Below the pieces are notes generated by a model that was given only the letters and a program-made list of their open reading frames with translations, did no database searches and had not been told where the DNA came from. A DNA stretch of 64,000 nt from an uncultured Nitrospira sp. (GTDB lineage: Bacteria > Nitrospirota > Nitrospiria > Nitrospirales > Nitrospiraceae), in contig CABVSR010000002.1 in the NCBI GenBank assembly GCA_902500995.1, positions 1-64,000 on the forward strand. The letters run 5' to 3'. A program made the translations under genes and the position numbers. Below, one piece after another: positions 15,549 to 18,519 of this stretch. Within the stretch, counting starts at the first letter, position 1. The number at the start of each line of letters is the position of its first letter.

Positions 15549-16580
15549 CTAGAAGGTATAGCTGAGCCCGACTGTGGGTCCGTGCCGCAGGGTTTGGAAC
15601 TCCGTCAAGGGCGCCGTCGCCACAGACCCATCTGCGCCATAGAGTTTCCACTGATCGTTGACGACCACGCGATTCCACCAGATGCGATACCCTCCGGTGA
15701 GGTACAGCCGTTCCCAGAGTCTCACGCGCAGATTAAAATCCGACGTGGTGCCGATGCCGAGACCGGTCATTCGAAAACTGGGGTCTTGCGCGAGATCGGC
15801 ACGGAGGTGATGCACGTCCTCATTGTTCAAATAGGACACCAGCAGCGCCACCTTCGCTTCGAGGCTCACGCGCGGATCAAGCTTATATTCCACCTCCCCG
15901 CCGACACGCCCCGACAACCAGGTCATGGTATTCGAAATCACGGACTGATTGCGGAATCCGACTGTGCCGGCCGGAGAACATCGGAATTCCGAGCTGGGCG
16001 AGGAAGCCGTCGTGCATTCCGCTTGAGTCACCCCGGTAGACACGTGCCGCTCCCGCCAATACTGCAACCCCGCGAATAGGCCCACACTGCCCTTGTTCTC
16101 CTTAAAAGTATGTGCCGTGACGCCGAGATCGCCGTTGATGTACCAAAGGTTGTCACCGCCGATGTCGCTGTAGGTCCGCGAGAACCGGTGCTCCCCGCTG
16201 GCGGTGGCGCCTTGGGCCGCGGCTCCCTGCGCGCTTAAGAAGTCGTCATCCGTGAGACGGCCTCCGCCGATGGCGCCGTAGCCGAAGGCGCCGCGGAAGA
16301 AGATCTTGCTCTTGAGCTGCACCCGGGCGGTGATCTCCGTTACATTCGTGCCGGTATCCTTATATTTCAACTTCGAACTGGGATTTCCCAGATTGGCGTC
16401 CAGGCCGGACGCATTGTGGCTCCATACCGTTTCCCCTTGGCTGAACCATTCCGAAATTTTGAAATCGACCTGCGCGATCGAGGAAGACGGCGCCACGGGA
16501 ACCTCACCCCAGGCCCAACCCGGCAGCGAACAGGCCAGACAGGCGGATACTGCGCAGAGCAAGCATCGCAACTGGTTCAT
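15549..16580 (-). CDS. Predicted outer-membrane beta-barrel protein
   Basis: A 343-residue exported protein. The signal peptide is MNQLRCLLCAVSACLACSLP followed by GWAWGE. The mature part alternates hydrophobic and polar residues and ends in GPTVGLSYTF, a terminal aromatic as in proteins assembled by the BAM complex. Paired strands such as RLYLTGGYRIWWNRVVV are typical of barrels. GGGAGC nine bases before ATG 16580 fixes the start; the frame continues to 16667 without support. Substrate or function is unknown; I recall similar sequences labelled Protochlamydia-type outer-membrane proteins. Confidence 0.7.
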   Translation of the reverse strand: MNQLRCLLCAVSACLACSLPGWAWGEVPVAPSSSIAQVDFKISEWFSQGETVWSHNASGLDANLGNPSSKLKYKDTGTNVTEITARVQLKSKIFFRGAFGYGAIGGGRLTDDDFLSAQGAAAQGATASGEHRFSRTYSDIGGDNLWYINGDLGVTAHTFKENKGSVGLFAGLQYWRERHVSTGVTQAECTTASSPSSEFRCSPAGTVGFRNQSVISNTMTWLSGRVGGEVEYKLDPRVSLEAKVALLVSYLNNEDVHHLRADLAQDPSFRMTGLGIGTTSDFNLRVRLWERLYLTGGYRIWWNRVVVNDQWKLYGADGSVATAPLTEFQTLRHGPTVGLSYTF

Positions 16581-17021
16581 AGGTGGTACGCTCCCTTTGC
16601 CGTCCGGGCCGACGACCTGTCCGCATGACCGCGAGACTACGTATCCAGGCCGGAACAGCGCGCCCACTGATACCGTACCTGCCGTGCATGGTCAACAACT
16701 TTCTCGGCCCGGGCCGATCTAGTGGCCTGCCCCTCCTGATGAGTCCATCCGTGGCTGACGGGAGGGCCTCGTCTTCCGCAAACGGGCGTGTCGATTTGGT
16801 ACAGCTGAGTGCCGCGGCCCTACAGGCGGAAAAAATTTCCTAGAGCATTTCTACGGGAAACGCTCCCCAGCAATTTACGTGAGGCACATGAAATTTTTGC
16901 TTGCCTATTCGCCTGTGTTCCGTTAGGGTCGGCTCTGAAAGAAATCCTGACGGGATTCTCACCGAACTCCGCTGAGCGATTCCCGACAATCAACTAAGAA
17001 GAACGCCGAAGCAATCTGTTG
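16581..17021. other. Long non-coding stretch between divergent genes
   Basis: No supportable gene is seen. The stretch holds a perfect 14-base palindrome TCGGCCCGGGCCGA at 16704-16717 and ends at the sigma-54 promoter that reads to the right. Promoters of the leftward barrel gene must also lie here, but no convincing hexamer pair was found. Confidence 0.5.
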
Positions 17022-17037
17022 TGGCACGCCTGTTGCT
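17022..17037 (+). promoter_or_regulatory. Sigma-54 (-24/-12) promoter
   Basis: TGGCACG, four bases, then TTGCT: a full match to the RpoN consensus TGGCACG-N4-TTGCW with the invariant GG and GC ten bases apart. Transcription would start near 17049, about 45 bases before ATG 17095. Such promoters need an AAA+ activator bound upstream. Confidence 0.8.
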
Positions 17038-17094
17038 CACGAACGATTGTTTCCTTTTTTCATTTCAGGACGATCACCTAAGGGAGAATTGGCT

Positions 17095-18327
17095 ATGACG
17101 GCACAGGTTCGCACAGCAATTCAGCAATCACCACGCCTCATGCGGAGACATGCGGGGGGACATCTTGTTGTCTTGATGCTGATCTTGTGGCTGTGCGACC
17201 TGGTGGGAAGTGGCCATGCGCTGGCGCAAATCGTCAGCACACCCAGCGCACTGTCGCTGACAGTCCCGAGAGGAGGCACGGTTTCCGGAACAGTCAGCCT
17301 GAGGAAATCGAGCAGCGCTCAACATAGCTACCTCATCAGCACGAACCAGGGATGGATCTGGCTCAACCCCGCTTATGGGAGCACGCAGACGATTACTACT
17401 GAAACGGATTCCCTCACCGTCACGGTCAATACTTCGGCCATGGGTCTCGGGGTGGGCACCTATTCCGGAGTCGTGTATATCGGCGAATCGGGGCCCGGCG
17501 TGTCGACGCTCCTGCGTATTCCCGTGACCACCACCGTCACGGCTGCCGGCAGCACGCCGCCGCCACCGCCGCCGCCCGCGTCCACTCCACCTCCGCCCCC
17601 CTCAGCGACACCGCCCCCGCCACCCCCGGCGGCGACTCCGCCGCCACCACCCGCAGCGACTCCTCCGCCACCGCCGCCTACTGGATCGCTGTCGCCCATG
17701 TTGAAAGCGTTCCCCTCTGCGCTTTCTCTCACCGCCGCAAAGGGAGGAACGGCCTCCGCCGTGTTCAATTTGCAGAAATCCAGTGCACAGGCAAGCACCT
17801 ATAGCATCAGCGCAAACCAGGCATGGACCAGTATGAGTCCGCCCTACGGCAGCACTCATACCATCACCACGGAAATCGATCCCGTTACGGTGTCGGTGAA
17901 TACGGGGACCATGAATGTGGGCAGCTACACCGGCGTCGTCTATATCGTGGAGAGTGGTCCCAATGGATCGCAGACCTTGCGCATTCCCGTATCGCTCACC
18001 GTTCTCCCGGCCGGCAGCGCCACGCCGCCACCACCGCCTTCACCGACAGGCGGCGCCACTTCTCCCCCGCCCCCGCCACCGTCCGGCGGCTCCACCGGCA
18101 CGGTCACGATTATGTGGAATGCCAACACGGAGGCGGACCTGCAAGGTTATCGCGTGTATGTCGGGACCAGGTCCGGCGCCCGCACCCAGGCCTTTGATGT
18201 CGGGAACGTGACGTCGACGCGACTCACGCTGCCGTTAGGGTCCACCTATTTCTTTGTCGTGACGGCCTACGACAGAAGCGGCAACGAAAGTTCTCCATCG
18301 GGAGAGCTGAGCCGGAGCCTGTTCTAG
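17095..18327 (+). CDS. Secreted protein with two BACON-like domains, Pro-rich linkers and a fibronectin type III domain
   Basis: A 410-residue exported protein. A signal peptide (residues about 15-45) is followed by two homologous Ig-like repeats with the BACON pattern (PSALSLTVPRGGTVSGTVSL and PSALSLTAAKGGTASAVFNL, each with a W and a TITTE stretch). They are joined by a linker of PPPPP runs; a second Pro-rich linker leads to a C-terminal fibronectin III domain (GTVTIMWNANTEADLQGYRV). GGGAG eight bases before ATG 17095 fixes the start. Such domains mediate carbohydrate or protein contacts outside the cell. A consensus sigma-54 promoter lies directly upstream. No sorting or anchor motif is seen. 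Confidence 0.75.
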   Translation: MTAQVRTAIQQSPRLMRRHAGGHLVVLMLILWLCDLVGSGHALAQIVSTPSALSLTVPRGGTVSGTVSLRKSSSAQHSYLISTNQGWIWLNPAYGSTQTITTETDSLTVTVNTSAMGLGVGTYSGVVYIGESGPGVSTLLRIPVTTTVTAAGSTPPPPPPPASTPPPPPSATPPPPPPAATPPPPPAATPPPPPPTGSLSPMLKAFPSALSLTAAKGGTASAVFNLQKSSAQASTYSISANQAWTSMSPPYGSTHTITTEIDPVTVSVNTGTMNVGSYTGVVYIVESGPNGSQTLRIPVSLTVLPAGSATPPPPPSPTGGATSPPPPPPSGGSTGTVTIMWNANTEADLQGYRVYVGTRSGARTQAFDVGNVTSTRLTLPLGSTYFFVVTAYDRSGNESSPSGELSRSLF

Positions 18328-18443: not shown

Positions 18444-18519
18444 GCGCCCGTAGCTCAATGGATAGAGCATCTGACTACGGATCAGAAGGTTACAGGTTCA
18501 AGTCCTGTCGGGCGCACCA
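18444..18519 (+). tRNA. tRNA-Arg (anticodon ACG)
   Basis: A complete 76-base cloverleaf. The acceptor stem GCGCCCG pairs with CGGGCGC, the D arm is GCTC...GAGC, the anticodon stem TCTGA/TCAGA encloses the loop CTACGGA (anticodon ACG, read as ICG after deamination), and the T arm ACAGG-TTCAAGT-CCTGT is standard. Discriminator A and an encoded CCA end the gene. It reads all CGU/CGC/CGA Arg codons. The stress island begins to its right. Confidence 0.97.

Follow-up and report, generated by a model that had tools for sequence, protein, structure and literature searches.

What switches on the gene for a repeated-domain, secreted protein in an uncultured Nitrospira, and does the same switch reach other parts of the cell exterior? 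Among the nitrite oxidisers of wastewater treatment, canonical Nitrospira hold a major place; they grow as dense aggregates, and to our knowledge the regulation of their surface has been little explored. The gene lies in a stretch of 64,000 nucleotides of one contig (the window), from a genome of a group that we take to be Nitrospira lineage I. The initial annotation of this DNA proposed that the gene is transcribed from a sigma-54 (RpoN) promoter, that its product is a BACON-like/fibronectin protein of the surface or matrix, and that the arrangement resembles PEP-CTERM type systems. Here we ask which of these proposals the locus, its orthologues and the rest of the genome support. The features of the locus are collected in Table 1.

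Table 1. Features at and around the exoprotein gene, numbered from the first base of the window.
Feature	Position	Strand	Basis
Divergent gene, outer-membrane-type protein	15549..16580	-	ORF, ATG near 16580; Pom match weak (21 bits, cut-off 22.4)
Sigma-70-like element TTGCCT-N17-TAGGGT	16901..16929	+	Conserved in the orthologue alignment
Imperfect palindrome, 41 bp	16948..16988	+	Candidate activator site or leader hairpin; model R1
Hairpin enclosing the -24/-12 element	17008..17053 (left arm 17008-17016, right arm 17045-17053)	+	Fold z -2.8, arm shuffles, covariation
Sigma-54 -24/-12 promoter (predicted)	17022..17037	+	Exact consensus; core identical across orthologues and paralogues
T6 run immediately 3' of the hairpin; candidate tail of an intrinsic terminator	17055..17060	+	Sequence
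Ribosome-binding site AAGGGAG	17080..17086	+	Inside the conserved CACCTAAGGGAG block; sequence and orthologue alignment
Gene for the 410-aa secreted protein	17095..18327	+	Pfam, AlphaFold2 model, orthologue alignment
tRNA-Arg(ACG)	18444..18519	+	Conserved downstream neighbour; ARAGORN

The sequence TGGCACGCCTGTTGCT on the forward strand reads TGGCACG-N4-TTGCT, which is an exact sigma-54 -24/-12 consensus. The full pattern TGGCAC-N5-TTGCW, with GG at -24, GC at -12 and the fixed spacing, is present, and the ATG lies 58 bases past the last base of the motif, as the initial annotation had it. TTGCT sets the GC at about -12, from which a transcription start at about 17048 is predicted. Exact matches to TGGCACGNNNNTTGCW number three in the 3.97-Mb genome, against none for a reversed-pattern control. 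With one mismatch allowed there is no enrichment (23 matches in the genome versus 38 in the control), and thus only near-perfect sigma-54 sites are informative. Summed over 29 genomes of the same genus, TGGCAYRNNNNTTGCT gives 247 matches, versus 32 in the control.

The gene encodes a 410-aa protein laid out as a hydrophobic signal region, a first BACON-like domain (residues 45-150, all bounds being approximate), a Pro-rich linker, a second BACON-like domain (203-304), another Pro-rich linker and an Fn3-like domain (333-409). BACON_2 (PF19190) matches with 34.5 bits, over the gathering cut-off of 25, so the BACON part of the first description holds. The fibronectin part is weaker: fn3 (PF00041) reaches 22.2 bits, below its cut-off of 25 (30.9 bits in the paralogue described below), and for this reason we name the C-terminal domain Fn3-like only. 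The AlphaFold2 model (20 orthologues) has three beta domains with a mean pLDDT of 64.5. A Foldseek search with this model returns many Ig-like beta-sandwich proteins at a whole-chain TM of about 0.2; given the modest model confidence and this TM, the search indicates beta-sandwich domains and no more. The protein is presumably exported through the Sec pathway and may serve in the matrix. Orthologues (L005-L030) range from about 390 aa to about 710 aa, which reflects how many near-identical modules, each a BACON domain with a proline linker, they contain.

The -24/-12 core is present upstream of all 26 orthologues whose upstream DNA was read, in 25 genomes of the same genus and one of another genus (G014). 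Twenty-four of these are orthologue loci with upstream DNA (L005-L026, L029 and L030), and two more (L192 and L193) were reached via the upstream palindrome; L027, L028, L033 and L034, in which the upstream DNA is missing, fall outside the count. The site of L030 ends in TTGCG in place of TTGCT. The loci are syntenic, as the tRNA-Arg(ACG) gene is kept on the 3' side of the orthologue in 22 of the 24 loci scanned (four of these loci are from named records). Loss of the motif upstream of orthologues had been put forward as the observation that would tell against a promoter here; what we find is the core in every one of the 26.

A paralogue on another contig (C6, locus L163) carries its site at C6:25865-25880. 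It encodes three BACON-like modules, and both BACON_2 and fn3 score over their cut-offs. The core is present at 26 of 26 paralogue promoters, one in each of 26 genomes; a script criterion (TGGCA[CT]-N5-TTGCT shortly before GGAG and ATG) identified 25, and G014, for which another stretch was read, is the 26th. All nine positions of the core show 100% identity, across 24 orthologue rows as well as across 25 paralogue rows. Identity in the 20-nt flanks on either side of the core is 79% and 76% among orthologues, and 57% and 79% among paralogues. Apart from the core, the upstream DNA of the paralogue differs from that of the main gene, so the common core is not simple hitch-hiking. Sites were also identified before two distant homologues with a single BACON domain, at no more than about 130 nt from an ATG: TGGCATGACCATTGCT in L231 (G098) and TGGCATGCATGCTGCT in L230 (G016, another genus). 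The site is strictly conserved at several independent promoters.

The paralogue has, in addition, a strictly conserved block of its own (GCAAAATGGCTCGTGACGCGGCTTTCTGG), located 25-50 bp before its -24 element. This block is absent from the other sigma-54 sites of the genome, including that of the main gene. A stretch at C1:42964 was considered as a second copy and rejected, being a weak partial match (E 0.0135) located where an unrelated gene begins, with no sigma-54 site in the stretch read.

The genome encodes a single rpoN (one Sigma54_AID match), along with 26 strong Sigma54_activat matches that represent candidate activators. At C14:96438 a near-consensus site heads a row of genes (C14:96439-100414; L134:8439-12414) that encodes, in order, a secreted-looking protein of 163 aa, an AlgE-like exporter and, at C14:98861-100414, a GAF/AAA+ activator. 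The outer-membrane protein belongs to the Alginate_exp family (7.5e-37), and the activator downstream of it combines GAF, Sigma54_activat and HTH_8 domains. GGCAY-N5-TTGCT was found upstream in all 25 orthologous loci of this AlgE operon. The T before the GG is kept in only 6 of these 25 sites, and the AlgE-operon site is for that reason weaker than those of the BACON genes. The C14 genes that precede the site are GlgE-, maltokinase- and branching-enzyme-like, so that alginate itself is not implied. The initial annotation had recommended a search for the same promoter and an AAA+ activator near exopolysaccharide genes, and this operon, with a site in every locus and its activator adjoining, is what that search brought up.

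Of the two further exact sites, one (C24:56167) lies 138 nt before a RoxA-like cytochrome gene and the other (C24:31542) 280 nt before a small ORF. The RoxA-like gene (C24:54254-56182; L036:14254-16182) is followed by a sensor-kinase-like ORF. Near C24:31542 (L035:8476-17416) stands a row of ORFs which, judged by eye, resemble a transporter of two-partner secretion, a TPR/CHAT protein, a pair of similar small secreted proteins and a TonB-type receptor. One-mismatch sites precede lpxC-like, flgF-like and FliK-like genes, the ORFs again read by eye.

We consider it very probable that the element at 17022-17037 is a working sigma-54 promoter and its gene a member of a sigma-54 regulon for the cell exterior, which the sequences support well. 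RpoN-polymerase would bind the -24/-12 element and wait there for opening by an AAA+ activator. The BACON/Fn3 exoprotein would then be made only under the activator's signal, and an abundant protein of repeated domains would stay off until needed. In Nitrospira lineage I the regulon would comprise the BACON/Fn3 gene, the paralogue with three BACON modules, and the AlgE-like polysaccharide-export operon beside its own activator gene. That a BACON exoprotein, its sister genes and a polymer-export operon appear to share one sigma-54 switch suggests that parts of the cell surface are controlled in this way. We infer dependence on RpoN in the cell, an activator with its signal, export of the protein and a role in the matrix or at the surface. 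In the proposal of sigma-54-regulated surface or matrix production, it is the promoter that stands, with its core in all orthologues and paralogues; the surface or matrix part is circumstantial and leans on the AlgE operon. The sigma-54 sites form a small set, strictly conserved, that covers exoproteins of repeated domains and an operon for polysaccharide export; they offer concrete genes, and a concrete switch, to examine in connection with aggregation.

Several observations count against sigma-54 control. The one-mismatch pattern is unenriched, and most AlgE-operon sites lack the T before GG. The palindrome occurs only at the BACON-gene locus, and the conserved block of the paralogue is not shared with the main gene. 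Upstream, the conserved sigma-70-like element could be what drives the gene, in place of the sigma-54 promoter or together with it.

The sigma-54 element lies inside a hairpin, and this raises an alternative in which the motif is conserved as the apex of an RNA structure and the gene is driven by sigma-70. The hairpin is supported (see below), and the GCA and TGC of the motif pair with each other. However, the paralogue promoters have the same core and no hairpin, the core is invariant whereas the stem varies, and the AlgE operon and the distant homologues place the core in otherwise unrelated surroundings. Because the paralogues keep the core without the hairpin, we reject the idea that the motif is an RNA apex only, and regard it as very improbable.

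Another possibility is a leader with two promoters, which would refine the sigma-54 explanation rather than replace it. An RNA of about 125 nt, begun at the sigma-70-like element, would stop at the hairpin and T6 run (17008-17060), and the sigma-54 promoter would sit within that hairpin, so that RNAs begun there, without the left arm, would escape. When the arms are shuffled around a fixed motif, z averages -1.9 for 24 orthologues versus -0.08 for 25 paralogue promoters; the hairpin thus beats arm shuffles in the former and not in the latter. In an alignment of 23 rows, 85.1% of cells are paired, the covariation score is reached in none of 500 shuffles, and 19 cells have changes on both sides versus 12.2 expected (6 of the 500 shuffles reach 19). 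The T6 run past the right arm and the conserved TTGCCT-N17-TAGGGT upstream also fit. Against this, the number of covarying pairs (those with double changes) and the number of pair types in the same 23 rows do not exceed those of the shuffles, and swapping arms among 11 cluster representatives gives just p = 0.037. Among the orthologues, L011-L013 have a weak hairpin, and L010 and L021 have one of a different form with a poor T run. Neither element was picked up by the scans: the hairpin with its T6 run is missing from the terminator list, and the sigma-70-like element stayed below the promoter threshold. T-rich DNA also precedes the start codon of the paralogue, where there is no hairpin. An Rfam search of the leader gave no relevant match; only chance snoRNA matches at 16646-16781 were returned, and a known RNA family for the leader was rejected. 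On balance we hold the two-promoter leader to be possible, and somewhat unlikely.

A nested terminator is possible because a transcript begun at the sigma-54 start, inside the right arm, would be without the left arm and unable to form the hairpin. A constitutive sigma-70 leader would be cut off by the hairpin and T6 run, with the sigma-54 promoter at the apex, and the gene would be silent unless a sigma-54 activator fires or the leader palindrome lets the sigma-70 transcript through. We judge this arrangement unlikely, since the hairpin is not listed by the terminator scan and termination itself is a prediction only. If true, strict dependence of the gene on an activator would be achieved by compact means.

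The palindrome is centred about 80 bp before the predicted start. Its model, R1, has one strong match in the genome. At the BACON-gene locus it recurs in 25 of the 29 genomes of the genus and in G014, nearly invariant within the genus and as a single copy per genome. None of its 14 pairs has double changes, and as there is no covariation we do not call it an RNA. It could be either an activator site or a leader hairpin. Further copies marking a regulon were sought and the idea was rejected; the genome holds none, and where the model matched weakly elsewhere, in G082 and G122, no sigma-54 site lies close by.

The sigma-54 promoter before a secreted protein also invites comparison with PEP-CTERM systems. 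In the part of the literature drawn on here, PEP-CTERM genes of Proteobacteria are preceded by sigma-54 promoters and by an upstream motif whose last bases are TTTACA, with PrsK and PrsR as regulators (Haft 2006, PMC1569441), and for pepA of Aquincola tertiaricarbonis both RpoN dependence and the start site were mapped (PMC9850573). The gene might accordingly belong to a PEP-CTERM/EpsH system under PrsK, PrsR and RpoN. The promoter-to-start distance of 58 nt fits the mean of 71 nt published for PEP-CTERM genes (PMC1569441, from the sections consulted). Two exosortase genes are encoded in the genome (contigs C7 and C11), and two proteins adjoining the one on C7 end in PEP-type tails, with a response-regulator-like ORF upstream (L166:3721-11051). 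Lacking at the BACON gene are the features that define membership. The protein ends in SPSGELSRSLF, with no PEP motif, transmembrane segment and basic tail at the C-terminus (no sorting signal had been seen initially, and this is borne out), and TTTACA (motif 1) is absent from both strands of 16581-17094. No PrsR over the curated cut-off was identified in the genome; the best candidate scores 480.2 bits against 502.6 and lies about 195 kb from the gene. Contigs C7 and C11 have zero Sigma54_activat matches, and in L166 there is no near-consensus sigma-54 site upstream of the C7 PEP-CTERM genes. Thus, membership is rejected and we regard it as exceedingly unlikely; the likeness to PEP-CTERM systems drawn in the initial annotation is one of similar logic.

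What is already known, as far as the published passages used here go, is sigma-54 control of exterior functions in general, together with a proposal of flagellar control in Nitrospira. Predicted sigma-54 promoters precede genes for the cell exterior, exopolysaccharide and flagella (Francke 2011, PMC3162934, in the passages searched). Control of flagellar genes by FleQ/FleSR and sigma-54 has been proposed for Nitrospira ND1 and N. defluvii (PMC5767232, in the text available). In the searched text of PMC12516955, "sigma54" occurs once, in the title of a reference. In the part of the literature searched, which lies outside subscription journals, we found no link between BACON proteins and sigma-54, and searches on Nitrospira with sigma-54, BACON, rpoN and fibronectin, or alginate and RpoN gave nothing on this gene among the papers listed.

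Compared with these systems and with its own domain family, the locus shows likenesses and differences. The 410-aa protein matches BACON_2 ("Viral BACON domain") over the cut-off; here, however, two to four repeats stand between Pro-rich linkers, an Fn3-like domain closes the chain, and the protein is a bacterial exoprotein. With Proteobacteria PEP-CTERM genes such as pepA, as described in the passages cited above, it shares a secreted product, a lengthy intergenic region upstream, and a -24/-12 element some tens of bases before the start, but it differs in having no sorting signal, no TTTACA, no PrsR over cut-off and no exosortase nearby, and in its phylum (Nitrospirota). Neither BACON proteins nor a regulon of Nitrospira is mentioned in the searched passages of Francke 2011, although their picture of sigma-54 as a controller of the bacterial exterior is one that our genes resemble. 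The FleQ/FleSR scheme, in the text cited, deals with flagellar genes where the present case deals with an exoprotein, but both involve sigma-54 control in the same bacteria, and in this genome a near-consensus site precedes a flgF-like gene.
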